From: Xanthobacteraceae bacterium
GTDB taxonomy: Bacteria > Pseudomonadota > Alphaproteobacteria > Rhizobiales > Xanthobacteraceae
Direction: 5' to 3'
NCBI GenBank assembly: GCA_023954195.1
Contig: JAMLIK010000003.1
Coordinates: forward strand, 310,001-374,000
Length of the DNA stretch: 64,000 nt
In this document: piece after piece, positions 27,007 to 39,431 of the stretch
Numbering within the stretch: position 1 is the stretch's first letter
How the letters are laid out: each line of letters starts with the position of its first letter
Program-made: the position numbers and the translations under genes
The notes under the pieces: generated by a model
Told to the model about the DNA's origin: nothing
Database searches by the model: none
What the model saw: only the letters and a program-made list of their open reading frames with translations

Positions 27007-27034
27007 CGGTATTATGGCGCAAACGCCACAAGAC
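27007..27034 (+). repeat. Left terminal inverted repeat, element 1
   Basis: 28 bases starting CGGTATTATGGCGC and ending GCCACAAGAC, the exact complement of 32671-32698. It contains an internal small dyad TGGCG...CGCCA. Confidence 0.95.
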
Positions 27035-27063
27035 ATTCGCCGCTCCGTTCTTAGATTGGCGGC

Positions 27064-27516
27064 ATGAATGAAAAAGGAAATCGCTACGCAATCCACGCCT
27101 TGAAGGATCGCCGCGCAACGCTGGCCGGTGAGATCCAGCAGTTTAAGCAAGGCATTCGCGACCGCGAGAATCAACTAGCGCACCTAGACGCCACGTTGCG
27201 GATTCTCGACCATGAATATCGGGCCGATACGGTTGCCCCGAAACGCCTTCGTCGCGTGAAACTGTTCGGCGGCGGTGAATTGAACCGCCTGATTACAGAT
27301 GCTCTGAGACGGTCGGAGGGCATCCCGCTAAGCTGTTCCGATATTGCAAAGGCAATTGTCGCCGCAAAAGGCTACGGCAAGGAATCGCTCCCAGCACTGA
27401 CACGCCGGGTCCGCGCCAACCTGTCCTACCTGCGTCGCGGCAACAGGGTTGTGAAGTCTGGCGATAGAACAACGGCGGCTTGGTCACTGCCGAACTCCCA
27501 TCTTCAGGTGTCCTGA
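27064..27516 (+). CDS. Coiled-coil/winged-helix accessory protein, element 1
   Basis: Protein of 150 residues with no family name I can give. Residues 8-55 form a charged coiled coil (LAGEIQQFKQGIRDRENQLAHLDATLRIL). Residues 75-145 look like a winged helix (FGGGELNRLITDALRRSEGIPLSCSDIAKAIVAAKGY, then a basic wing RGNRVVKSGD). It aligns with the gene at the same left-end position in element 2 (FGKGELTRAIYDELRMAESPMLSRDIARSIVAL). The shared place, shape and sequence imply a conserved job, perhaps DNA binding or control of the restriction gene; this is inference. Its 3' end overlaps the convergent enzyme gene by 13 bases. Confidence 0.8.
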   Translation: MNEKGNRYAIHALKDRRATLAGEIQQFKQGIRDRENQLAHLDATLRILDHEYRADTVAPKRLRRVKLFGGGELNRLITDALRRSEGIPLSCSDIAKAIVAAKGYGKESLPALTRRVRANLSYLRRGNRVVKSGDRTTAAWSLPNSHLQVS

Positions 27517-30356
27517 TTGGATAGTGGCCGCCTTCGTCTTTTCTTCGCCACAGCCGCAGATTCAATGGGAGCGGCCATCTTTTCATATAGACTAAAAAGA
27601 TGTTCCACGCGCTCCCGCTCGAACTGGAATCCCGAACGACGATAGAGGCGGTCGACTGCCTTATCTAAATTATCATGTGCGCGACGTAGATCGGGCGGCA
27701 TCGCGTCCGGGTCGTAGAGGTCGTCGAGGGTTAGGTTGCGGAATTGCAATCGTGCATCCAAGACGGCCTGCGCCAGCGTCTCGGTTTGTTGCACCTTAGC
27801 AGGTGTCATCTCCGGCCACGGGAATGAGTTGTAAATTGACGGCGAGTAGCTGTAGTCGCTTTTCAGGCGACCGCCAACCGTTCTCATCCAAGCCATGTGC
27901 ATGGCGGATGTAAGAATGCCGAAATACAAAAGAGGTGCACCAACTATGATCTGTAACTTGTTAGAGGCAACAACCTTGGCATCCAGCACGGCCATTGGAA
28001 TATACTCTCGCGTCTCCGATGACACTTCTGGCAGGGCTAAATAGGGCTCAGTTGGCTGACGATCTTGCGTGAAAAGGGTGGGATACTTCGCATATTCACG
28101 AACACTGTCGGTCGGACTCTGCAATCGTCCAGCACGGACACGATTCAATCGCTCCTGTACAGCGGCGGATTGGCGAATTTCGGCAGGATCAGCATCCTTC
28201 AACCACAAACACCATCGCCAACGTCCTGAAATCAATTCATCTCCGCCGACGTAGGGTCGCAACCATTTCTCCGCTTTCGGGCATGCGGCCAGCAGATCCG
28301 CGCGCTCACCGTCATCCAAAATAAGGTTGCTATAAGTGATGTAGCCTCCGCCCGGCTTCTTTAGCCTCGCCCCGTCGGTTGGCTGGCTACCTTTGTGCAA
28401 GGGCAATCTTCCAAAGGGCGGCTTCGATCTAGCCGGCACGGCGTGCTGCGCTCCCTCTATCAAATATCCATTTATTTGGCTTACTAGAGATGCGTGGGGA
28501 TCGCCGCGAAGATGCTCGTATTCGTAAATATGTTTAGAACTGTCAGACTTCTCAAATGTGAGTCCTACAATCACGCAATGGACGGCAGCGCTCCCACGCG
28601 CCTCGCTGTTCCATTGGAACGTCCGGTGCGCAAACCTGATTGTCGCACCGTTTGCGAACATATATGGCCAAAGAATCCCACATTGCTCTCCTTGGGTGAT
28701 TGAGTTCGTAGAGACAAAGGCTACGGCGATGGACTTGTTGTTCGCGGCGTATCGAACTGATTTGTTGAACCAGCACGTCACGTAGTCCAGTCGGTTAAAT
28801 TGGCCGCCACTTCCCCATACCCGCTTCATATCGGCCTGTTGCGCCTCGTCGCGCCATTGATGCCCAATGAATGGAGGATTCCCGAGGACGTAAGAGCACC
28901 GCGTGGCCTTAAGAACGGTATCCCACTCTATGTCGATTGCGTTGCCGACCACGATATGCGGTGACTTCTTCAGCGGAATACGAGCATACGAGGTGTTGAA
29001 CGCGAGACTAAAACGATTGTTCATGATGTGGTCCATCATCCACATCGCGACTTCGGCGATCCGGGCTGGGAATTCCTCCATCTCGATACCGTAAAACTGA
29101 TCGACGTCAATTACGGATACTCCGGATGCGCCGCTACGAAGCAATGTTTCAATACGGCTTTCACCCATCATTTTGACAGAGCTTCTTAGGATTGCCTCGA
29201 TCACATCCATTTCCAGCAGGCGCATCTCCCGGTAGGCAATAATGAGAAAGTTGCCACAGCCGCAGGCTGGGTCAAAGAAAGTGAGCTTCCCGAGTCGCTG
29301 GCGAAAGGCTTCAAGTTCGCTCTTGCGGCGATTGTCTTTGCGGGCATTAATCCGTGCGAATTCGGCCCTCAAGTCATCGAGAAACAGTGGCCCGATGACC
29401 TTCATTATATTTTTCTCGGTAGTGTAATGAGCGCCTTTCTTTCGGCGTTCATCCTTGTCCATCACGGACTGGAATAAAGAGCCGAAAATTGCGGGAGAGA
29501 CAGCGGACCAATTGAATTGACATGCCTTAAGTAGCGTGGCGCGCATCTTCGCATTAAAGTCAGCAACTCTCAGACGCGCGGCAAAGAGATCACCATTTAC
29601 ATACTGAAACTTCGCGAGGTCCGCGTCGAGGTTCTTTTGGCGCTCATGATCTGGCGTATTCAATACTTCAAACAGGAGATGTAACCATAAACCAACATCG
29701 GAGCCGTCGTCCCTGGTCCGGCTTTCAATCAAATCAAGCAGAATATCGCGAGGATCGAATATGCCTGTATCATCGGCAAACAGAATGAAAAGAAGCCGAA
29801 CGAGATAGCGTTCGAGATCGTGGCCCTTGTAGCCCGACTCTTCAAGTGCATCGTGAATAGCACCCATCAATTCGGAAGCTTTGATATTTACGGGGTCTTG
29901 ATCGCGGAAGCTCCGCCGCTCGATGCCGAGAATAAACGCAAATCGCTCAATATTTTTTGGCAAGTCAGCTAGTTTGAAAGGCCACGTTTCGCGCGTATCG
30001 CGGTCCAATATCTCAAAATTCTGGAAATCGCAGAGTAATTGCCAGCGAGGCTTTTCCGAGTCCTTGAGAGCGTCGAAGTATTCTCCTGCTTGCTCCGCAG
30101 CATCGGTCAGACTCCGGCCCGCGCTTTTCTGCTCAACGAGAAGAACCTTCGGCCAAAATAGATCAATGAACCCGTAGCGGTTGTTCAATTTCTTGATATG
30201 CTCTTCGTAGCGAGCTACGCGGCGGCGCTCGACCCCGAAAATTTCAAAAAATTCATTGTAGAAGGTTTGCGTCTCACCTTTTTCATAGTGCGCGTCTTTC
30301 CATTTTTCCGCAAAAGCGGCAGCACGCAATCGTATGTCATTCCACGAACGACGCAT
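27504..30356 (-). CDS. MmeI-like (type IIL) single-chain restriction-modification enzyme
   Basis: About 950 residues combining nuclease, methyltransferase and target recognition. The N-terminal PD-(D/E)xK site is Asp65...Glu75-x-Lys77 in FIDLFWPKVLLVEQKSAGR, closely matching MmeI (Asp70, Glu80, Lys82). A helical spacer follows. The N6-adenine methyltransferase part has motif I FDPACGCGNFL (about 360) and motif IV LGNPPFIG (about 490). The last 400 residues hold the recognition and C-terminal helical domains. The ATG at 30356 follows GGGG at seven bases; longer in-frame starts run into the transposase gene. It lies 62 bases after the transposase on the same strand. In the family such enzymes cut about 20 bases from their site and protect it by modifying one strand. 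Confidence 0.92.
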   Translation of the reverse strand: MRRSWNDIRLRAAAFAEKWKDAHYEKGETQTFYNEFFEIFGVERRRVARYEEHIKKLNNRYGFIDLFWPKVLLVEQKSAGRSLTDAAEQAGEYFDALKDSEKPRWQLLCDFQNFEILDRDTRETWPFKLADLPKNIERFAFILGIERRSFRDQDPVNIKASELMGAIHDALEESGYKGHDLERYLVRLLFILFADDTGIFDPRDILLDLIESRTRDDGSDVGLWLHLLFEVLNTPDHERQKNLDADLAKFQYVNGDLFAARLRVADFNAKMRATLLKACQFNWSAVSPAIFGSLFQSVMDKDERRKKGAHYTTEKNIMKVIGPLFLDDLRAEFARINARKDNRRKSELEAFRQRLGKLTFFDPACGCGNFLIIAYREMRLLEMDVIEAILRSSVKMMGESRIETLLRSGASGVSVIDVDQFYGIEMEEFPARIAEVAMWMMDHIMNNRFSLAFNTSYARIPLKKSPHIVVGNAIDIEWDTVLKATRCSYVLGNPPFIGHQWRDEAQQADMKRVWGSGGQFNRLDYVTCWFNKSVRYAANNKSIAVAFVSTNSITQGEQCGILWPYMFANGATIRFAHRTFQWNSEARGSAAVHCVIVGLTFEKSDSSKHIYEYEHLRGDPHASLVSQINGYLIEGAQHAVPARSKPPFGRLPLHKGSQPTDGARLKKPGGGYITYSNLILDDGERADLLAACPKAEKWLRPYVGGDELISGRWRWCLWLKDADPAEIRQSAAVQERLNRVRAGRLQSPTDSVREYAKYPTLFTQDRQPTEPYLALPEVSSETREYIPMAVLDAKVVASNKLQIIVGAPLLYFGILTSAMHMAWMRTVGGRLKSDYSYSPSIYNSFPWPEMTPAKVQQTETLAQAVLDARLQFRNLTLDDLYDPDAMPPDLRRAHDNLDKAVDRLYRRSGFQFERERVEHLFSLYEKMAAPIESAAVAKKRRRRPLSNQDT

Positions 30357-30418
30357 AAACAAGCCCCATGTAATTCTCTGACCGTCACTCAGCGATGGCG
30401 AGCATGTCGGAACGATAC

Positions 30419-31399
30419 CTATACGCAATGGCGCTGCCAATAGCCCGTGAAGTCCACAGACTTCCCCCGCTTCATCGCCAGCGCGGCTAGGCGGCTCACC
30501 TGTTCGCCATTCGACTGGCGGCGGTTATCTTCCCGCCAAGAGGATTCCTGAGCGTAGCGGAGCAAGTAGGCTCCCGCGATATGGTGATGGATACCGGTCT
30601 CGGCACGACGGAGCCGGGAGAAGTATTCTTCCGCTTGGTTCGTGCAGGCACCATCAAGACTATAGGCTTCCTGATGGTTGATCCGCTTCATTTCGAACCG
30701 CTCATGCAGGTTGTCCCATGAGGCGGCTTCGTCGGCATGGACCGTGGTGCCCTTGGCGATACGGGAGCGGATGAAAGATGCCGCCGCGCTTTCCGACCCG
30801 AAAACAGCCGGGACCGACATGCCGCCGCGCTCCCGAACAATTACGACGACCTTGCGCTTGCCGTTCTGATTGCGGGCAAGGCGACGGTCCCGACGATCTT
30901 CTTTCTTATTGGCGGGCTTGATGTATCCGCCGAAATAGCCGCCATCGACCTCAGCGGTTTTGCCTTCACCGCCGACGACGCGACCCTTCATTTCCTCTGC
31001 CATGGCTTCCCGCAGCTTATGCAGCAGGACGAATGCGGACTTGTAAGAAAGCCCCAGATCGCGGCTCAGCGCCAAGGCGCTCTTGCCCTTAACCTCGTTG
31101 CAGAACACAGCAATGGCCGCCAGATAGCCCCGCAGCGGCAACTTATGGCTAGCAAACAGCGTCCCGCTGGTGACGGTGAAGTCCTTTTTACAACCCTTGC
31201 AGCGGAAGCGGAGCGCGCCATTCGGACGACGGCATTCATACGCTTCAACCGATCCACAGGATGGGCAAACCGGGGTGCCATTCGTATCCACCCAACGGAT
31301 ATTCCGAAACATCGTCTCGGCTTCCAAGTCAGACAAGCGGAACACCTGAGCGAGGCTCAGGGTCTTTGCCGCTTTGCTGAGAAGGAAGTGTTGGGCCAT
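30419..31399 (-). CDS. IS1595-family ISXO2-like transposase, element 1
   Basis: 326 residues. The N-terminal zinc ribbon has Cys45-x2-Cys48 and Cys67-x2-Cys70 (CPSC...CKGC), followed by FTVTSGTLFASHKLPL. The catalytic triad of the ISXO2/IS1595 type appears as Asp152 (EVDGGYFGG), Asp223 (VHADEAASW) and Asn254 (CTNQAEEYFSRLRR), that is DDN rather than DDE. The ATG at 31399 aligns with the MAQHFLLS start of the element 2 transposase. It appears intact, with no frameshift, so the element may be active. Confidence 0.95.
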   Translation of the reverse strand: MAQHFLLSKAAKTLSLAQVFRLSDLEAETMFRNIRWVDTNGTPVCPSCGSVEAYECRRPNGALRFRCKGCKKDFTVTSGTLFASHKLPLRGYLAAIAVFCNEVKGKSALALSRDLGLSYKSAFVLLHKLREAMAEEMKGRVVGGEGKTAEVDGGYFGGYIKPANKKEDRRDRRLARNQNGKRKVVVIVRERGGMSVPAVFGSESAAASFIRSRIAKGTTVHADEAASWDNLHERFEMKRINHQEAYSLDGACTNQAEEYFSRLRRAETGIHHHIAGAYLLRYAQESSWREDNRRQSNGEQVSRLAALAMKRGKSVDFTGYWQRHCV

Positions 31400-31410
31400 C
31401 TGTCCTGTCA

Positions 31411-31510
31411 AAATCTAACACATTCGATAGATAACGAATATGATAGATTTGACAGAGCGTCAATAGAAAACTATCGTTTATGTTATGTCACGTAAACGAT
31501 AGGATTCACC
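31411..31510. promoter_or_regulatory. Divergent transposase/DUF6471 control region, element 1
   Basis: About 100 AT-rich bases with several dyads: ATTCG...CGAAT near 31430, outer arms TCAAAATCTA and TAGATTTGA around it, and a perfect 10-base inverted repeat CTATCGTTTA (31471-31480) / TAAACGATAG (31493-31502) just before the DUF6471 ATG. The motif AAACGATA also occurs before the DUF6471 gene of element 2, which suggests a shared operator. Confidence 0.55.
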
Positions 31511-31750
31511 ATGGCTCTAGCCAAGACAAAGGATGAATGGGGCGAACGCGCCAGCGCCTTTCTGAAAGCGAAGCTAAAGGAAAAGGAAGTCACTTACGTC
31601 GAACTAGTCAAGCGGTTGAAAAAGCACGGCTTTAAGGAAACGGAAGCCTCGCTCACCATGAAATTAAAGCGTGGGACGTTCTCCGCTACGTTCTTTCTCG
31701 CCTGTCTTGCGGCAATGGAACTTGAGGGAGTAGTTTTGGAGGAAATATAG
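31511..31750 (+). CDS. DUF6471 small protein, element 1
   Basis: 79 residues: a helical protein with WGERASAFLKAKLKEKEVTYVELVKRLKKHGFKETEASLTMKLKRGTFSATFFLACLAAM. The pattern resembles a minimal helix-turn-helix (TYVELVKRL then TEASLTMKLKRG). A homologue sits at the same position in element 2 (TYAQLVERLAAIG...KLSRGKFTAAFLLQCLSAV). It is divergent from the transposase, and an inverted repeat lies right at its promoter. This fits a small repressor of transposase and of itself, but no function is proven for the family. Confidence 0.8.
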   Translation: MALAKTKDEWGERASAFLKAKLKEKEVTYVELVKRLKKHGFKETEASLTMKLKRGTFSATFFLACLAAMELEGVVLEEI

Positions 31751-31767
31751 CAAGAATACATGCACGA

Positions 31768-32577
31768 TCATGCAAGGTCATGCGGCATTACAACTATGGG
31801 TGGGGTTGCTGGATTGTCGGCCGCGTAAAGTAGCAGCATTGGAAACTTCTGCTCGGCCCCGCTGGCATCAATGAAAACGAACGTTACACGTTCTTTGCCT
31901 CGGACTGAGCATGGACGGGTCCCAGAAGGCTTCCCATTGGGGTCTACTATTTTCCAAAGCCACCCTCTTAGCTCGGCTGGTGTCGCGCTCTCGTGGTCCC
32001 GATCCATAATGGCCACTGAGAAGCGGTGACCGGCAGCGCGAAGCTGGATTTCTCCTAAGTATAACCTCTCTGGTTTCGGCCAGCCCCAAGCATCCAAGTT
32101 GCCGCCAGAGCGATGGTGGGCAATGTCCACGAAGAGTCCAACTGCCACTCCTCCGCGCTTAGGGGTTATTACCAGCACCATTTCGCCGCCCGAAGGCCCA
32201 AACTGGATGTCCGCTATATTCTGAACAGCGGTCTCATGGCTTAACTCAGAGGCGGCTCCAGTTAGGCGGCTAAGCCGTTCTATTTCAACCTTAAGTCTTC
32301 TGTTGATTCTGGCTGGGGCAAGGAAAAGCCTCCCTAAAAGTACGGCAATCCAGGTTGATCCAAGAAACGCCAAAACGAATAGCAGCGCGTAACCGTCGAG
32401 CTTGTCAGGGAGGGTCAATGTTTGACCTCCCAACCATGCGCCAAACCAAACAAGGGGCGGACCCCAAAGGCCCGCCCAAGCGTTAGCCAAGCTAAACGAT
32501 CCCCGCCAAGCCTCTCGAATACACGTCCAATAAAAGCAGGCGGCTTGATGCAAAAGCGAATCCCCCTTTGATACCAT
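31768..32577 (-). CDS. Two-helix membrane protein of unknown function, element 1
   Basis: About 269 residues. Two hydrophobic spans lie at about 30-50 (WAGLWGPPLVWFGAWLGG) and 62-87 (ALLFVLAFLGSTWIAVLLGRLFLA). A short coiled coil follows (INRRLKVEIERLSRL) and then a soluble beta-rich domain (residues 115-269). No family recognised. It is the last gene before the right end of element 1 and points inward, the same position and direction as the membrane protein of element 2. ATG 32577 has a GAGGG very close by; a GTG at 32649 would add 24 residues. A defence effector role is possible but only inferred from context. Confidence 0.65.
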   Translation of the reverse strand: MVSKGDSLLHQAACFYWTCIREAWRGSFSLANAWAGLWGPPLVWFGAWLGGQTLTLPDKLDGYALLFVLAFLGSTWIAVLLGRLFLAPARINRRLKVEIERLSRLTGAASELSHETAVQNIADIQFGPSGGEMVLVITPKRGGVAVGLFVDIAHHRSGGNLDAWGWPKPERLYLGEIQLRAAGHRFSVAIMDRDHESATPAELRGWLWKIVDPNGKPSGTRPCSVRGKERVTFVFIDASGAEQKFPMLLLYAADNPATPPIVVMPHDLA

Positions 32578-32670
32578 ACCCTCGGGGTGGGAGATTCTAA
32601 ATATCCTGATACTGCCAAAGCCGCGCGCCCTGTCATAGCGCTGCCCCACGTGGGGATGCCTGGCGATTTA

Positions 32671-32698
32671 GTCTTGTGGCGTTTGCGCCATAATACCG
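32671..32698 (-). repeat. Right terminal inverted repeat, element 1
   Basis: 28 bases starting GTCTTGTGGC and ending CCATAATACCG, the perfect complement of 27007-27034. Confidence 0.95.
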
Positions 32699-32808: not shown

Positions 32809-32834
32809 CGGCCTTAGGTAGCAGATGCACCAAA
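32809..32834 (+). repeat. Left terminal inverted repeat, element 2
   Basis: CGGCCTTAGGTAGCA then GATGCACCAAA. It pairs with 39406-39431 with one mismatch at position 16. Confidence 0.93.
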
Positions 32835-32841
32835 CTCAACG

Positions 32842-33336
32842 ATGGTGCTGGAAAGTCTGACACGGCATTTTCAGCGCATGTCGGATACCATCAAACGATC
32901 CAGAACAGAGACTTTTGAGCACACGATCAGCGGGTTGCTGACTAAGAGAGCCGATCTATTCAACGAAGCCGAGCGCATCCGAGACCGCATGGCTGAGATC
33001 AAGAACGATATCGGAGCGATAGACCGGGTACTCGGCACCCTTGGTTATACCGGCGACCTAGACGCCGAAATGCCGCGCCAGAAACGGGAAGTCCTTTTCG
33101 GCAAGGGCGAATTGACGCGAGCCATCTACGATGAATTACGAATGGCAGAATCCCCAATGCTCAGCAGGGACATTGCCAGAAGCATTGTGGCCCTAAGAGG
33201 CGAAGATGCGCGGGATCGCAAATATCTATCCGACCTAACCAAGCGCGTGAGTAAAGCTCTGCGGGCAATGCGAGAGTCAGGGGAAGTGCGGAGTATGGCA
33301 GACATAAAGGGGAACGTGGCGTGGGAGCGGCGCTAA
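32842..33336 (+). CDS. Coiled-coil/winged-helix accessory protein, element 2 (left end)
   Basis: 164 residues if ATG 32842 is used; ATG 32878 (MSDTIKRSRTE) is equally plausible, as neither has a clear ribosome site. A coiled coil (about 25-65, KRADLFNEAERIRDRMAEIKNDIGAID) precedes a winged-helix-like region (KREVLFGKGELTRAIYDELRMAESPMLSRDIARSIVALRG, then LTKRVSKALRAMRESGEVRS). It is homologous to the 27064-27516 product and lies at the same distance from the left end. Unknown function. Confidence 0.78.
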   Translation: MVLESLTRHFQRMSDTIKRSRTETFEHTISGLLTKRADLFNEAERIRDRMAEIKNDIGAIDRVLGTLGYTGDLDAEMPRQKREVLFGKGELTRAIYDELRMAESPMLSRDIARSIVALRGEDARDRKYLSDLTKRVSKALRAMRESGEVRSMADIKGNVAWERR

Positions 33337-33420
33337 CAAACTAAACGCTTGATTTTGATTCGGAATTTCACCCACTTCTTTGGATTTGACATATGAATCA
33401 ATAAGTTGTACTTAGATTAC

Positions 33421-33513
33421 TGGGTGGAGCGATTGGACTCGAACCAATTCCTCATCGGGTGGCGTGAAGCACTTAGAGAACCCGATGCGTGCTATCCATT
33501 ACACTACGCTCCT
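33421..33513 (-). tRNA. tRNA-like sequence with enlarged anticodon loop (function uncertain)
   Basis: 93 bases that fold like a tRNA. The acceptor arm AGGAGCG pairs with CGCTCCA except at the first pair. T8-A9 follows, then the D arm GTGT-AATGGATA-GCAC with the GG pair, and a perfect T arm ATTGG-TTCGAGT-CCAAT. A genomically encoded CCA closes the 3' end. The anticodon arm is abnormal: CATCGGGT pairs with ACCCGATG (eight pairs) around a 19-base loop TCTCTAAGTGCTTCACGCC, so no standard anticodon can be read. It may be a degenerate tRNA, a tRNA with a small insertion, or a tRNA mimic. Its first ten bases overlap the end of the upstream gene, whose TAG stop is T8-A9-G10. Confidence 0.55.
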
Positions 33514-33947
33514 TTAGGGTCAGTAACGCCGGTTGCTGGCCCTAATTCTTTTGACGCCGCTTGACCCCCTTCATCGGGGAGATGGAACTTGTCGCCGCGT
33601 TTGACTATCCGTCCCTCTTTTACAAATCGATAGACGCTTGGCATAATTTGCTGGCTCACGAGACCGGGCCAATATCTCGTCCGAATTTTTCCACTAAGCC
33701 CTTGGCTGTTAAGACCTTCTCCACCAGCGTCTCTCAACGAATATACCACCATATCAAACAATGTCGGGAGGCCATCCGGCCTCGGAGCGCCAGATTTGGG
33801 CTCATCTTCATCGCCCCCACTTGAGGGTGCGTATTTTTCGATCACTTGAAGCGCGATCTCAATGTGGTCGGCTTCAGATCGCAGAGAGGCAACCTCTCTA
33901 TCGATCTCCATCAGCCGCGCTCGCAATATCTCGACCTGAGAGTCCAT
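33504..33947 (-). CDS. Second coiled-coil/winged-helix protein, element 2
   Basis: 147 residues from ATG 33947 (MDSQVEILRARL). An N-terminal coiled coil (VEILRARLMEIDREVASLRSEADHIEIALQVIEKY) and an acidic linker precede a winged-helix-like domain (LPTLFDMVVYSLRDAGGEGLNSQGLSGKIRTRYWPG...VKEGRIVKRGDKFHLP). It shares shape with the 27064 and 32842 products but is more distant in sequence. The stop codon lies inside the tRNA-like sequence, so its mRNA would carry that structure at the 3' end. It sits 32 bases after the transposase gene and may be co-transcribed with it. An upstream in-frame start at 34007 is less likely. Confidence 0.75.
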   Translation of the reverse strand: MDSQVEILRARLMEIDREVASLRSEADHIEIALQVIEKYAPSSGGDEDEPKSGAPRPDGLPTLFDMVVYSLRDAGGEGLNSQGLSGKIRTRYWPGLVSQQIMPSVYRFVKEGRIVKRGDKFHLPDEGGQAASKELGPATGVTDPKGA

Positions 33948-34039
33948 AGTATGTGTGATACACCTGCATTCACGGAGATGCAATATCCATATTATGGGTG
34001 TCCTCAATGAATTTCATGATGGGTGAGAACAAATGTAAA

Positions 34040-34999
34040 TTAGCGGGAACGCTGCCAATATCCCTTCCAATTACGGCTAACCTTCTGCGCCAGCGCCAAT
34101 CCAAGCGCCCGGTTCGCCAGCGCCCCGTTGTCGAGACGGCGGTTATCCTCAATCCATGCCGCATGGTTGGCATACTGATAGAGGTACTGCGGCGAAACCG
34201 TATGATGCTGACCGTCCACCATGCGACGGAGCCGCGAGAAGAACGATTCCGCCCAGTTGGTGCAGGAGTCGCCGGTACAGTACGCTTCCGAATGGTTGAT
34301 CCGATGGACTTGCCAACCGGCGTGTAAGGCATCCCAATGAGCGGCTTCATCAGCGTGCATGATGGCGGTACGGCTTACGATCCGTTTCGCGATATCAACG
34401 CCCTCGCTTTCGTGGCGACCAACGAATGTACGGGTGCGGCCTTTCCGCTGCCGCAGAGCAATTACGACACGGCGCTTGCCGGTCTGGTTACGTGCCAACC
34501 GCCGATCAATCCGGTTCGCCGCTTCGTTGGCGGGGCGGACATGGCCGTGAAAGTAGGCACCATCAATCTCGACTTCGCCGTCTAGCATCGTGTCCTTGGT
34601 TTCAGCCGCCATCGCCTCGCGCAGTTTATGAGCAAGGACGAAAGCCGTTTTGTGCTGGCAGTCGAGATCGCGGGACAACTGCAACGCACTGATGCCCTTC
34701 GCCGCATTCACGATGATGCAGATCGCGGCCAGCAGATCGACAAACGACATCTTGCGCGAGGCGAAGATCGTCCCGGACGTAACCGAAAACTGGCGCAGAC
34801 ATGCCTTGCACTTGAAGCGACGGCGCGTCGTGATCCGATAGGCGTCCAACCCACCACAATGCGGGCAAACCGGCTCGCCATCCGTGGCAGGCCAGCGGAG
34901 CTTGCAGAACGTCTCGTATGCCTTGTCCTCGCCAACCGAATAGATCGCTTTAAGAGAAAGCGTCCTTGCCTTGGCTGAAAGAAGGAAATGTTGGGCCAT
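34040..34999 (-). CDS. IS1595-family ISXO2-like transposase, element 2
   Basis: 319 residues, intact. Zinc ribbon Cys45-x2-Cys48 and Cys64-x2-Cys67, then FSVTSGTIFASRKMSF. Catalytic Asp146 (EIDGAYFHG), Asp217 (MHADEAAHW) and Asn248 (CTNWAESFFSRLRR). It is clearly homologous to the element 1 transposase over its whole length, ending KGYWQRS in this one and TGYWQRH in the other, but many positions differ. The two elements therefore diverged long before both inserted here. Confidence 0.95.
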   Translation of the reverse strand: MAQHFLLSAKARTLSLKAIYSVGEDKAYETFCKLRWPATDGEPVCPHCGGLDAYRITTRRRFKCKACLRQFSVTSGTIFASRKMSFVDLLAAICIIVNAAKGISALQLSRDLDCQHKTAFVLAHKLREAMAAETKDTMLDGEVEIDGAYFHGHVRPANEAANRIDRRLARNQTGKRRVVIALRQRKGRTRTFVGRHESEGVDIAKRIVSRTAIMHADEAAHWDALHAGWQVHRINHSEAYCTGDSCTNWAESFFSRLRRMVDGQHHTVSPQYLYQYANHAAWIEDNRRLDNGALANRALGLALAQKVSRNWKGYWQRSR

Positions 35000-35098
35000 T
35001 TGTCACTATATCCGTTACGTATGTAACGAATGTAGTGCATTGACGTATCGGATGCAAGGGCTTATGTAACGAAAACGATACTTTTCTTACTGAAAGCG
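35000..35098. promoter_or_regulatory. Divergent transposase/DUF6471 control region, element 2
   Basis: About 100 bases with an inverted repeat CGTTAC-GTAT-GTAACG (35013-35028), a second TGTAACGAAAACGATAC stretch (35065-35081), and the AAACGATA motif (35073-35080) shared with element 1. Likely contains the promoters of both divergent genes and the binding sites of a small regulator. Confidence 0.5.
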
Positions 35099-35329
35099 AT
35101 GCCTATGGCCGAAAAGACAGACTACGAGATGATGGCCGCCAACCTCCTGAAGGCGGAATTGAAACGAAAAGGCGTGACCTACGCCCAATTGGTAGAGCGG
35201 CTGGCCGCAATCGGCGTTGACGAGAAGGAAGTGAACATCCGTAATAAGCTCTCTCGGGGCAAATTCACGGCAGCGTTTTTACTTCAATGTCTTTCAGCAG
35301 TCGGAGCCAACACGCTCCGATTTGACTGA
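35099..35329 (+). CDS. DUF6471 small protein, element 2
   Basis: 76 residues (ATG 35099; ATG 35105 also possible). MMAANLLKAELKRKGVTYAQLVERLAAIGVDEKEVNIRNKLSRGKFTAAFLLQCLSAVG aligns with the element 1 protein along its whole length. It has the same divergent position next to the transposase and is followed after 30 bases by the restriction enzyme gene, so it may be the first gene of a two-gene unit and could control the enzyme. A role is not proven. Confidence 0.8.
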   Translation: MPMAEKTDYEMMAANLLKAELKRKGVTYAQLVERLAAIGVDEKEVNIRNKLSRGKFTAAFLLQCLSAVGANTLRFD

Positions 35330-35359
35330 ATGCGCTATCTGGCGGACCGGGTGTGCTGA

Positions 35360-38300
35360 ATGCACCTTTTCAATCCTAAAACTATTGGTCGATACATTCT
35401 CACAAACTCCACGATCCCGCCTTCTCATTTTGAGCACCTGAGAGAATGGCGGGAGTTGATTGTCTCAGAGCGTATCGAAGGCATCAAAGAAACTTCCCTC
35501 CATGCCGACTTCAAGTCGAAAATAATTGAGGCGGTACTGGGCTATGTGAGCGCCGCCAAAAGTGCGGACCATACCGTCACGTCTGAGCAATCAATCTTGC
35601 GAGGGTCCGTTGACCTTGCCCTCGGCCAATTCGGCAAAGGTCGCTCGCAGATAATCGCTCCATTTGAGTTGAAGGGTGCAAATACAAAGAACCTCGACGC
35701 GATCATGCCAGGACGCAAAAAGAGTCCTGTTCAGCAAGCGTGGGGATATGCCATCAACGCCCCAGGTGTGAAGTGGGTTCTTGTCTCCAACATGGTTGAG
35801 ATCAGACTCTACGGCTTCGGAGAGGGTACGCAGGCGTATGAAAGATTCTATCTCGTCAGATTAGTTGAGCCGGACGAGTACGCGCGCTTTCAACTTCTGC
35901 TGAGTTCGGAGAATCTGCTCTCCGGGCGAACGGCCGACCTCCTGAACGAAAGTCGCCGTGAAGATAAGAAAATCACGCACAATCTCTATAGTGAATACAA
36001 GAGATTGAGACTGGATCTAATCGCGGCGGTCGAAGGGGCTACAACTATCTCTCCTATGCACGCTATCACGGTCGCGCAGCGGATTCTTGATCGGGTATTA
36101 TTCATCGCCTTCTCCGAAGACACCGGACTTCTACCCAAAGGCACCCTGGTCAAAGCGTTTACCACCAGAGACAATTACAACCCGCGCCCCGTATGGGACA
36201 ATTTCAAAGGGCTCTTCAACGCTATAGATAATGGCAGCGATGCACTGAACATCTCCCGTTACAATGGCGGCCTCTTCCATCCTGACGAGACGATCAATGC
36301 GCTGGTCCTGTCCGACGATGTCTGTGAGGGATTCAAGGCCCTTGGTGAGTATGATTTCGGATCCGAGGTTTCCGTCACCGTTCTGGGACACATCTTCGAG
36401 CAGTCCATCACCGACGTTGAGCGTCTTCAGGCGCAGGCGCGGGGCGAGGAGGTCGAGGAAGAACGCGCCTCCGGCACCACCGGCCGGCGCAAGCGTGACG
36501 GTGTTGTCTACACTCCCGATTACATCGCCCGTTTCATCGTGGCGGAAACCTTGGGCATCCATCTTGATGAAATCTTCACCGACATTCTGCGCGCCCATGC
36601 CAAGGCAGGGGCCGATCTGTCCGATTACGCCGCCATTTCATGGCGCCGGAAATCTGCCGAGCTTGATACTTGGAAAGCCTACCGGGAACGGCTGAAGTCT
36701 CTGCGTATCGTTGACCCTGCCTGCGGATCCGGCGTCTTTCTCATCATGGCCTTCGATTTCATGAAGGCCGAGCTAATCCGCGTCAACGACAAGATCAAGG
36801 ATCTTTCGCCGAAGGCGGAGCACTACGGCGATTTGTTGAGCTTTGTTCCGGACAGCGATATTTTGACGAATAACCTGTTCGGCGTCGACGTGAATGTCGA
36901 GAGCATCGAAATCGCCAAACTGTCGCTATGGATCAAGACCGCCCGGCGCGGAAAGGTGCTTGACAGCCTGGATGCGAACCTGCGCGTTGGTGACAGCTTG
37001 ATCGAAGACAGCAACTTCGCCTATCTCGAACATGGCTTTACGTGGGAAACCGCCTTTCCGCAGGTCTTCGCGGAGGGCGGCTTTGACGTCGTTCTGGGCA
37101 ACCCGCCTTATGTGCGCATGGAGTTCCTGAAGGCGCTGAAGCCCTATCTAGAAACCCGCTATGAAGTGGTTTCCGACCGGGCCGACCTGTACTGCTATTT
37201 CTACGAGCGCGGACTGCGTCTTTTGAAGCTAGGCGGGCGCTTGGGTTACATTTCCTCGAACACCTTCTTCAAGACCGGATCGGGCAGGCCGCTGCGCGAA
37301 TACCTGCTACGCGAGGCGACAATTGAGGCTGTGGTCGATTTTGGCGACCTCCAGGTCTTCGAGGGAGTCACCACCTACCCCGCCATTCTGACCATGAAAC
37401 GGGGGGCTGCGCCCGCCGGGCATGAATTGCGCTTCCGGAAGATCGAGGCGGTGCCGGAGGATAACTTTCAGGCAACATGGGAAAAGGCGGCCGGGCCCTA
37501 TCCGCAGGCTGCCCTCGGAAGCGGTTCATGGGAACTGGAAAACGCCGCCCTGCGCGCCCTGCGCGATAAAATTAGAACGGGCAGGAAGACTCTGAAGGAC
37601 GTTTATGGATCGCCGCTCTACGGCATCAAGACCGGGTTGAACGCTGCCTTCGTGATCGACGACGCCACCAAGGAGCGCCTGTGTGCGCAGGATCCGCGTT
37701 CCGGCGAGTTGCTGAAACCCTTTCTGGAAGGGAAGGATCTGAAACGCTGGCGCGCAGAGTCGCGAGGACTCTGGCTTATCTACATCCCGCAACGTCGTAT
37801 CAATATTGAAAACTATCCGGCTATCCGCGACTGGCTATTGCCATTCAAAGACAAACTAGAAAAGCGGGCCACGAAACAAGAATGGTTTGAACTACAGCAA
37901 GCGCAAGAAGCCTATGCGCCACATTTTCATCCATCCAAAATTGCCTATGGCCATTTCCAAGATCAGCCGATCTACTCCATGGAAACGACTGGGGCATATT
38001 CTAACAACAAAACCTACTTCATCCCAAACGGTGGCTGGGACTTACTGGCTGTTCTGAACTCAAAAGTTATCTGGTTTGATTTCTGTTCAAGGACCACGGC
38101 CGTTCGAGGTGGATGGCGCGAAGCAACCGCGCAGCATGTGGAAAAGCTCCCTATGCCTATCATCCCAGATAATGCCAGCGCCGAACTTTCTCGTCTGGCC
38201 AACGTGGCGCAAAAGTCTGCTGAAAATCGCCTCGCTCTGCAAACGGCCCTGATGCGGCGGATCCCCGACCTCTGCCCGTCTGGCCGCGACCCCAAACTAA

Positions 38301-38551
38301 CAAATCGACTTCAGGAGTGGTGGATATTACCTGACTTCGCGGCCTTCCGGCGCGAGGTGAAGAAGGCATTCAAAACCGACATTCCCTTGGGCGAGCGTTC
38401 GGCATGGGAGGATTGGATCACTCGCGACAAGAGAGAGATATCTCGCCTAACCGCCGAGATTGAAGCAAGCGAACGCAGGATCGACCAGATTGTCTATGGC
38501 CTCTTCGATCTAACGCAGGAGGAAATCGATCTATTGGAAGCGAATATCTGA
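35360..38551 (+). CDS. Eco57I/type IIG-like single-chain restriction-modification enzyme
   Basis: 1063 residues. A nuclease-like N-terminal domain has Asp85 (GSVDLAL) and Glu103-x-Lys105 (APFELKGA), the PD-(D/E)xK layout. The N6-adenine methyltransferase core has motif I IVDPACGSGVFLI (about 451-462) and motif IV VVLGNPPYVRME (about 577-588). A long C-terminal specificity region (from about 700, including KPFLEGKDLKRW, typical of TaqI/Eco57I-type recognition domains) ends with a coiled coil (ITRDKREISRLTAEIEASERRIDQIVYGLFDLTQEEI). It both cuts and modifies DNA. The start at 35360 lies 30 bases after DUF6471. The central third is more GC-rich than both ends, which suggests a patchwork origin. 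Confidence 0.92.
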   Translation: MHLFNPKTIGRYILTNSTIPPSHFEHLREWRELIVSERIEGIKETSLHADFKSKIIEAVLGYVSAAKSADHTVTSEQSILRGSVDLALGQFGKGRSQIIAPFELKGANTKNLDAIMPGRKKSPVQQAWGYAINAPGVKWVLVSNMVEIRLYGFGEGTQAYERFYLVRLVEPDEYARFQLLLSSENLLSGRTADLLNESRREDKKITHNLYSEYKRLRLDLIAAVEGATTISPMHAITVAQRILDRVLFIAFSEDTGLLPKGTLVKAFTTRDNYNPRPVWDNFKGLFNAIDNGSDALNISRYNGGLFHPDETINALVLSDDVCEGFKALGEYDFGSEVSVTVLGHIFEQSITDVERLQAQARGEEVEEERASGTTGRRKRDGVVYTPDYIARFIVAETLGIHLDEIFTDILRAHAKAGADLSDYAAISWRRKSAELDTWKAYRERLKSLRIVDPACGSGVFLIMAFDFMKAELIRVNDKIKDLSPKAEHYGDLLSFVPDSDILTNNLFGVDVNVESIEIAKLSLWIKTARRGKVLDSLDANLRVGDSLIEDSNFAYLEHGFTWETAFPQVFAEGGFDVVLGNPPYVRMEFLKALKPYLETRYEVVSDRADLYCYFYERGLRLLKLGGRLGYISSNTFFKTGSGRPLREYLLREATIEAVVDFGDLQVFEGVTTYPAILTMKRGAAPAGHELRFRKIEAVPEDNFQATWEKAAGPYPQAALGSGSWELENAALRALRDKIRTGRKTLKDVYGSPLYGIKTGLNAAFVIDDATKERLCAQDPRSGELLKPFLEGKDLKRWRAESRGLWLIYIPQRRINIENYPAIRDWLLPFKDKLEKRATKQEWFELQQAQEAYAPHFHPSKIAYGHFQDQPIYSMETTGAYSNNKTYFIPNGGWDLLAVLNSKVIWFDFCSRTTAVRGGWREATAQHVEKLPMPIIPDNASAELSRLANVAQKSAENRLALQTALMRRIPDLCPSGRDPKLTNRLQEWWILPDFAAFRREVKKAFKTDIPLGERSAWEDWITRDKREISRLTAEIEASERRIDQIVYGLFDLTQEEIDLLEANI

Positions 38552-38565
38552 ACGATGATCGCTCA

Positions 38566-39318
38566 TCATGATTGACCAATCGTCCGGTCCATATCGCGAA
38601 AGCCATCAAGTAGCTTCTGCCTCTGATTGATGAGGTTTCGTTCAGCCTCGGCCTTTTCGTTCTGCAAGAATGCGATAGACTTGACGTACTGAGCATTCGC
38701 GATTGCCCATTTTCTCATTAGGAGAGGATCAATCTCGATCGGGCGCTCTCCTATTGGCGTCGCCTCCATCTTCTGATCCGCCGATTGCTCGGCCAGTTTC
38801 ATTGCAAGGTCGTACCTTTCCCTCCGGTCCGACCCGAACTCTAGGCCGCCGCGCACAATAGCGACAAAACCATTCATGTCGGCGGCTGACTGGCTGATGC
38901 TCTCTTTGGATGTCGGTATGATCTGCGGGAACCCCGTTGGGGCCCTTCCCAAAAGATCATCCATCATGAGTATCGTGGTCTGGCAGATCATCGCATAGGT
39001 GATATTCAAGAGATGCAGATCAGGTCTGGCATTGACAGGTTGAATGCCTGCTGGGCCAGAGACGTCGCTTCTCTGTGACATCGCGCCAGGCAAATAGGAG
39101 AGGATAACATAAGTCCCAACGGCTACCATTAAGGCCATTGGAAACCACGACTCCGAGAACCACGTCCACACGCCTAGCACCCCGCCGATCGCGGACTTGA
39201 CGAGTGGTATCTGGACGTACTCGATGTACTGCTGTCTAAGGGACGTGTAGGACTCGACCGTCTTGAGAAGCCAATCGACGCCCCTGAGTTTTCGCAAACT
39301 TTGAAGAAGGTTGCCCAT
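38566..39318 (-). CDS. Membrane protein of unknown function, element 2
   Basis: 250 residues. A hydrophobic region at about 37-80 (SAIGGVLGVWTWF, then FPMALMVAVGTYVILSYL) forms one or two membrane spans. The rest is soluble, with a C-terminal coiled coil (AIANAQYVKSIAFLQNEKAEAERNLINQRQKLL). No family recognised and no clear sequence match to the element 1 membrane protein, yet both sit last before the right end and point inward. Shared placement suggests a shared class of role, for example an abortive-infection effector, which remains conjecture. Confidence 0.65.
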   Translation of the reverse strand: MGNLLQSLRKLRGVDWLLKTVESYTSLRQQYIEYVQIPLVKSAIGGVLGVWTWFSESWFPMALMVAVGTYVILSYLPGAMSQRSDVSGPAGIQPVNARPDLHLLNITYAMICQTTILMMDDLLGRAPTGFPQIIPTSKESISQSAADMNGFVAIVRGGLEFGSDRRERYDLAMKLAEQSADQKMEATPIGERPIEIDPLLMRKWAIANAQYVKSIAFLQNEKAEAERNLINQRQKLLDGFRDMDRTIGQS

Positions 39319-39405
39319 ACTGGAACTCTACCAGCCTGCAACTTCAAGGCGAAACTAGATTTAGTCGTTTTCCGCATGTTTCGGACCCTATCTTGTGGTC
39401 CGGCC

Positions 39406-39431
39406 TTTGGTGCATTTGCTACCTAAGGCCG
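39406..39431 (-). repeat. Right terminal inverted repeat, element 2
   Basis: TTTGGTGCATTTGC then TACCTAAGGCCG, the complement of 32809-32834 with one mismatch. The right target duplication CATTTTCG follows at 39432-39439. Confidence 0.93.

Follow-up and report, generated by a model that had tools for sequence, protein, structure and literature searches.

What is a gene shaped like a transfer RNA (tRNA), but with an oversized anticodon loop, doing inside a transposon? The question is raised by element E2, a transposon of the insertion sequence (IS) family IS1595 in the genome of a Xanthobacteraceae bacterium. E2 lies in the window analysed here, the whole 64,000-nucleotide stretch from position 310,001 to 374,000 of contig JAMLIK010000003.1. 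The gene is on the minus strand (33421..33513) and, read from 33513 to 33421, specifies an RNA of 93 nt with the layout AGGAGCG-TA-GTGT(AATGGATA)GCAC-G-CATCGGGT(TCTCTAAGTGCTTCACGCC)ACCCGATG-AGGA-ATTGG(TTCGAGT)CCAAT-CGCTCCA-C-CCA. In the acceptor stem, AGGAGCG (33513-33507) faces CGCTCCA (33431-33425), with six pairs, among them G3-C70, and an A1xA72 mismatch. T8-A9 (33506-33505) is followed by a D arm with a 4-bp stem (GTGT/GCAC) and GG in its loop; the variable loop is AGGA, the T arm AUUGG-UUCGAGU-CCAAU, and the 3' end consists of C73 and an encoded CCA (33423-33421). The enlarged anticodon arm (33453..33487, minus strand) is formed by eight pairs between CATCGGGT and ACCCGATG, which close a 19-nt loop, UCUCUAAGUGCUUCACGCC, at 33479-33461, with an inner 3-bp helix GTG/CAC. 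A tRNA (RF00005) has an anticodon loop of 7 nt, in which U33 and a triplet for reading codons are present; with its loop of 19 nt, the RNA is called tRNA-like here and not a tRNA. The loop includes CTCTAAG, reminiscent of a CUA anticodon.

An earlier note on this DNA had read most of these features directly, from T8-A9, the D-loop GG and the perfect T arm with TTCGAGT to the anticodon arm with eight pairs and a 19-base loop, and the minimum free energy (MFE) fold bears it out. This fold gives all cloverleaf arms and resolves the anticodon arm into an 8-bp stem, a 7x3 internal loop and a 3-bp helix. To that note can be added the A1xA72 mismatch, C73 and, directly at the 5' end, a hairpin of terminator type (33514-33545). 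Judged by covariance models, the structure exceeds chance and is a real tRNA-derived RNA gene. The covariance-model search that had been proposed gives a match to RF00005 of 39.3 bits (E=1.4e-6 in 1 kb), above the gathering cut-off of 29, with lax filters only; the whole-window Rfam scan with default fast filters missed the gene, which is an effect of filtering. An alphaproteobacterial tRNA model built here (R2) scores it at 46.3 bits (E=6.7e-9 in 0.97 Mb). ARAGORN misses it in a default run and calls it only if introns are allowed or thresholds lowered, and the folding energy of the 93 nt is unremarkable (MFE z=-1.4). The host's own tRNAs do look different, as had been claimed: 40 were compared, all are canonical and none is close, the nearest D arm by eye being that of tRNA-Gln(CUG). 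A recent capture from the host was rejected for lack of a close relative among these 40.

E2 itself (32809..39431) has terminal inverted repeats (TIRs) CGGCCTTAGGTAGCAGATGCACCAAA, an 8-bp target-site duplication (TSD) CATTTTCG on both sides and an IS1595-family transposase (34040..34999, minus strand) with a zinc ribbon (PF12760, E=4e-15) and an ISXO2-like DDE domain (PF12762, E=1.7e-36). On the minus strand the transposase is followed by a 167-aa gene (33504..34007), the hairpin and the tRNA-like gene. The 167-aa protein is predicted to consist of a long N-terminal helix of 39 residues (coiled coil) and a winged helix; its best PDB matches are winged helices, for example linker histone H5 and Z-alpha, none of them under E=0.001. 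The TAG stop codon of this gene (33506-33504) is at the same time T8-A9-G10 of the tRNA-like RNA. The earlier note was right to regard such an overlap as unusual for a tRNA, yet the close juxtaposition to this gene recurs in half of the gene's relatives.

The window copy has counterparts in other elements. Transposase relatives from genome and viral contigs, many of them draft and metagenomic, yielded 108 non-redundant elements bounded by TIRs and an 8-bp TSD, and 22 of these carry tRNA-like genes. The genes are of canonical type in 17 elements and of a D-armless type, here called mini, in 5 others, while one element (L109) has both. In a shuffling control on the first 68 elements, scores of at least 24 were reached in 11 elements as against 0 of 204 shuffles; the flanking DNA holds 1.4 ARAGORN tRNAs per 100 kb, which are host or phage genes. 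ARAGORN matches in four elements (L076, L082, L107 and L205) were discarded as chance, as they lie largely within coding sequence. Two positions are occupied: about 90-570 nt after the transposase, or directly after a coiled-coil/winged-helix gene, the window copy being of the latter kind. The tRNA-like genes often sit between outward-acting hairpin terminators. The usual arrangement is a GC-rich hairpin preceded by an A-run (a terminator for the antisense strand) next to the 5' end, and a strong terminator for the sense strand 7-20 nt beyond the 3' end. Both bracketing terminators were called automatically in 9 of 18 tRNA-bearing elements, whereas a comparable pair with a gap of 60-200 nt was seen in 0 of the 90 elements without a tRNA-like gene known at that point.

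The window copy lies within the TIR and TSD bounds, is tRNA-like, follows a winged-helix gene and has the 5' hairpin. It apparently belongs to an undescribed kind of transposon cargo and is not a one-off; no description of tRNA-like passenger genes in IS1595 elements was found in the open-access literature. Conservation in related elements, which the earlier note had named as decisive, holds for the arrangement and the tRNA nature but not for the exact structure, and homology among the element tRNAs is established only inside the Cys-bodied and mini groups described below. On the transposase tree, elements with the tRNA-like label group together (1 of 500 shuffles was as low), but at least 10 changes are needed. 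The clade of E2, L094, L022 and L011 (support 94/72 for the four) carries tRNA-like genes in all four members. Since L022 and L094 have almost identical transposases and different tRNA-like genes, on the opposite strand, exchange of this cargo is evidently fast.

Furthermore, there is an association with the 167-aa gene. Among ten relatives recovered by a profile search, the next gene is a same-strand tRNA-like in five, as compared with 28 of 3000 other open reading frames (ORFs) of the same loci. The gap from stop codon to tRNA-like gene is -10 nt in E2, 5 in L109, 25 in L212, 39 in L007 and 85 in L090, and a further relative (L300) has a weaker tRNA-like candidate 3' of its stop codon and a hairpin. 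On this sequence evidence, the window RNA is best regarded as the E2 version of a recurrent pair of protein gene and tRNA-like gene, with a body unlike the mini RNAs of the other pairs. A pattern search for close relatives of the 167-aa protein in genome contigs found none, the profile search doing better, and the plasmids searched held no relative of this protein or of the L109 protein. In two loci (L006 and L299), the tRNA-like gene is replaced, right after the coiled-coil/winged-helix gene, by a conserved tiny ORF of about 26 aa (M.EYPSFGVIRTG.P.PG.VP.L), which has a Shine-Dalgarno-like GGAG.

Are these RNAs under selection? The presence of acceptor and T arms is in itself no sign of it, since detection requires both, while covariation is. 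Five Cys-bodied members, located 87-110 nt past the transposase stop codon, have 96% paired cells, and both sides have changed in 12 of their 20 pairs. None of 500 shuffles was as high, and from this covariation their structure is judged to be maintained. When bodies were assigned by nearest neighbour with the anticodon masked, using a small reference drawn mainly from two genomes, body and anticodon were concordant in 0 of 15 element tRNAs with a readable triplet and in 70 of 79 reference tRNAs; L186 is ambiguous, and the five Cys-bodied members form one lineage, so that these are not 15 independent events. Three Ser-bodied members combine a GGA/UCC acceptor and G73 with the anticodons UUA (L024), GUU (L060) and CCU (L131), and have over-long variable arms. 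The tRNA-like RNA of L022 has an enlarged D loop. With the anticodon arm of E2, the enlargement of one arm is therefore a recurrent trait.

The mini class comprises ten RNAs of about 71 nt that lack the D stem and end in CC(A). They were found at L007:2011-2081, L019:4573-4643, L038:3983-4054, L073:4088-4160, L090:684-753, L109:5454-5525, L116:5592-5662, L151:4900-4972, L174:10069-10140 and L212:3578-3649. Several share the strand of the transposase and are located 340-480 nt upstream of it, and most of the ten have an NCC anticodon-like loop. Pairing is complete (100%) in the acceptor and T stems, and both sides have changed in 8 of their 12 pairs, in an alignment that was fitted to the model and leans to structure. 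While neighbouring pairs swap, G3.U70 is kept in nine of the ten, and the same nine have A73. This combination is the signature of alanine tRNA, common to transfer-messenger RNA (tmRNA). The L007 RNA scores 42.8 bits against the tmRNA model RF00023, below the cut-off of 47, and six other mini-bearing loci gave no tmRNA match and no matching Rfam family for their mini RNAs. Membership of the whole class in tmRNA is unsupported by Rfam.

On the basis of these observations, it is possible to speculate about the role of the window RNA. We favour, tentatively and at slightly less than even confidence, a non-decoding tRNA mimic that is carried as element cargo, is paired with the winged-helix gene and acts through its acceptor/T half. 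The RNA would be co-transcribed with the winged-helix gene and matured by the tRNA enzymes of the host, that is, by RNase P and 3'-end processing. It would then act as a mimic. Decoding would not be its task, given an anticodon loop that is unable to offer a normal triplet for reading codons. Among the possibilities listed in the earlier note, a tRNA mimic fits best, as tRNA-like genes recur as cargo in related IS1595 elements and follow relatives of the same protein gene. Cleavage by RNase P at 33514/33513 would sever the messenger RNA (mRNA) just before the stop codon of the 167-aa gene, and therefore E2 would yield either the protein or the mature RNA, one excluding the other. This arrangement would be a built-in switch on the winged-helix protein. 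A broader proposal is that IS1595 elements maintain aminoacylatable tRNA mimics, of Ala type in the D-armless class and of Cys or Ser type in others, and that these are paired with a coiled-coil/winged-helix protein in a module of two parts, RNA and protein, by which the element is controlled or translation in the host is disturbed. Here the window copy would be a variant that does not decode, and its maturation would destroy the stop codon in the mRNA of its partner. In this full form, the idea is rather unlikely.

Several observations speak against a non-decoding mimic paired with the protein. In most other class members the anticodon loop is well formed and of 7 nt, which points to decoding in those. 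In five of the ten relatives of the 167-aa gene, no tRNA-like gene could be detected downstream, and the overlap with the stop codon is confined to E2, the relatives' gaps being 5-85 nt, so that the switch is not a general feature. The 3' intrinsic terminator that is common, though not universal, in the class was not found at the window copy, where only the 5' hairpin is present. A1xA72 and C73 agree with none of the 40 host tRNAs and could be decay. Finally, among 397 genomes of the order, plasmids and phages, the window RNA has no DNA homologue other than its own copy.

These last points lead to the main rival explanation, to which we give appreciable though minor weight: a functional transposon-borne tRNA was acquired and then degenerated here, the insertion in the anticodon arm and the 1:72 mismatch being neutral damage. 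Besides the enlarged loop, A1xA72, C73, the missing downstream terminator and the lack of a homologue, the fast turnover seen in L022 and L094 is in line with such decay. However, there is no damage to the D stem, T stem, T loop, T8-A9 or CCA, a perfectly paired 8-bp anticodon stem is not readily produced by random damage, and relatives whose RNAs are intact have them at the same site, after the winged-helix gene. The dead tRNA of the earlier note might thus apply to this copy, for which no sequence-level homologue was found, but not as an isolated relic, since tRNA-likes recur in related elements.

Mistranslation is a serious rival for the class, because acceptor-end identities (Ala, Cys, Ser) are combined with swapped anticodons. 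The chimeric RNAs would be charged according to their body and read the codons of another amino acid or a stop codon, as the complete discordance of bodies and anticodons, the mostly well-formed loops, the Ser bodies with UUA, GUU and CCU, and the CUA-like CTCTAAG of E2 would suggest; precedents are tRNA-ProX (PMC10365949) and the allo-tRNAs (PMC7609411). E2 would then have a variant with a tolerated insertion, and in this form the explanation seems improbable: decoding is not expected of a 19-nt loop, C73 and A1xA72 fit none of the identities among the 40 host tRNAs compared, and the discordances come partly from one lineage and from a small body reference.

It is very doubtful that the RNA has a role in cis only, as a 3' end or processing signal that limits expression of the winged-helix gene or the transposase. 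The location 3' of either gene and the flanking terminators would agree with this, but G3.U70 and A73 in the mini class and the Cys and Ser acceptor signatures suggest selection for aminoacylation, which is needless for pure processing. A canonical tRNA with a small archaeal-style intron that is spliced out, also considered in the earlier note, can practically be dismissed: ARAGORN does model a tRNA-Gly(gcc) or a tRNA-Arg(tct) with a 16-nt insert, but its two solutions differ on identity, the fold lacks the bulge-helix-bulge motif of two 3-nt bulges separated by 4 bp, and the splicing endonuclease for it is not known from bacteria.

The surroundings of the gene can be described briefly. A 164-aa gene (32842..33336, plus strand) faces the tRNA-like gene from the other side; its product looks by eye like a coiled coil with a winged helix, and Pfam and PHROGs give no family. 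The hairpin TTAGGG...CCCTAA (33514..33545) reads as an intrinsic terminator for this convergent gene, because TTCTTTT comes after it on the plus strand. E2 further carries a Type IIG restriction enzyme-methyltransferase of Eco57I type (35360..38551, plus strand). A second IS1595 element, E1 (27007-32698, TSD CTGTCCGC), lies 110 bp away and has an MmeI-like Type IIG restriction-modification gene; judged from flanking ORF translations, E1 and E2 together interrupt one glycosyltransferase-like gene. Elsewhere, two IS1595 elements have host tRNA-Gln(CUG) genes as neighbours, the insertion being about 8 nt downstream of the gene in each (L039:10962, element end 10954; L156:7480, TIR end about 7472). 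This possibly reflects an insertion preference and a route for capturing tRNAs.

Mobile elements are known to integrate at tRNA genes; as cargo that recurs in a small IS family, such genes are not known. If the interpretation is correct, chimeric or armless tRNA-like cargo would supply the mobile-element home hitherto only guessed for odd allo-tRNAs, and possibly a route by which mistranslation or regulation by tRNA mimics spreads among bacteria. Within IS elements, an annotation of tRNAs by their anticodon is misleading. The IS1595 tRNA-likes also offer compact, testable RNA-protein pairs.

How do these RNAs relate to known systems? The allo-tRNAs (Mukai et al. 2017, reviewed in PMC7609411) are bacterial tRNAs with anticodons, ochre included, that are mismatched to the body, as in the element tRNAs. 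Their defining trait is an acceptor/T branch of 8/4 or 9/3, whereas the element tRNA-likes have 7/5 (the window copy with one mismatch) and reside within IS1595 elements of defined bounds; there are Cys- and Arg-like bodies and forms without a D arm among them. The tRNA-ProX/ProRSx system of Streptomyces (PMC10365949, PMC11415595) is also chimeric, with Ala, Asn or Thr anticodons, and was shown to mistranslate. In contrast to its tRNA-Pro body, partner synthetase and A33, the element tRNAs have other bodies, mostly U33, a transposon location and no synthetase partner that could be seen. The mini class resembles the tRNA-like domain of tmRNA (RF00023) in its D-armless form, G3.U70 and A73, but is without an mRNA-like domain or tag peptide and has an anticodon-like loop, usually NCC; the window RNA departs from tmRNA by C73, G3-C70 and its 4-bp D stem. 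With the IS1595-family insertion sequences, finally, E2 shares the transposase domains, TIRs, 8-bp TSD and passenger genes, and to these it adds a tRNA-like passenger gene.
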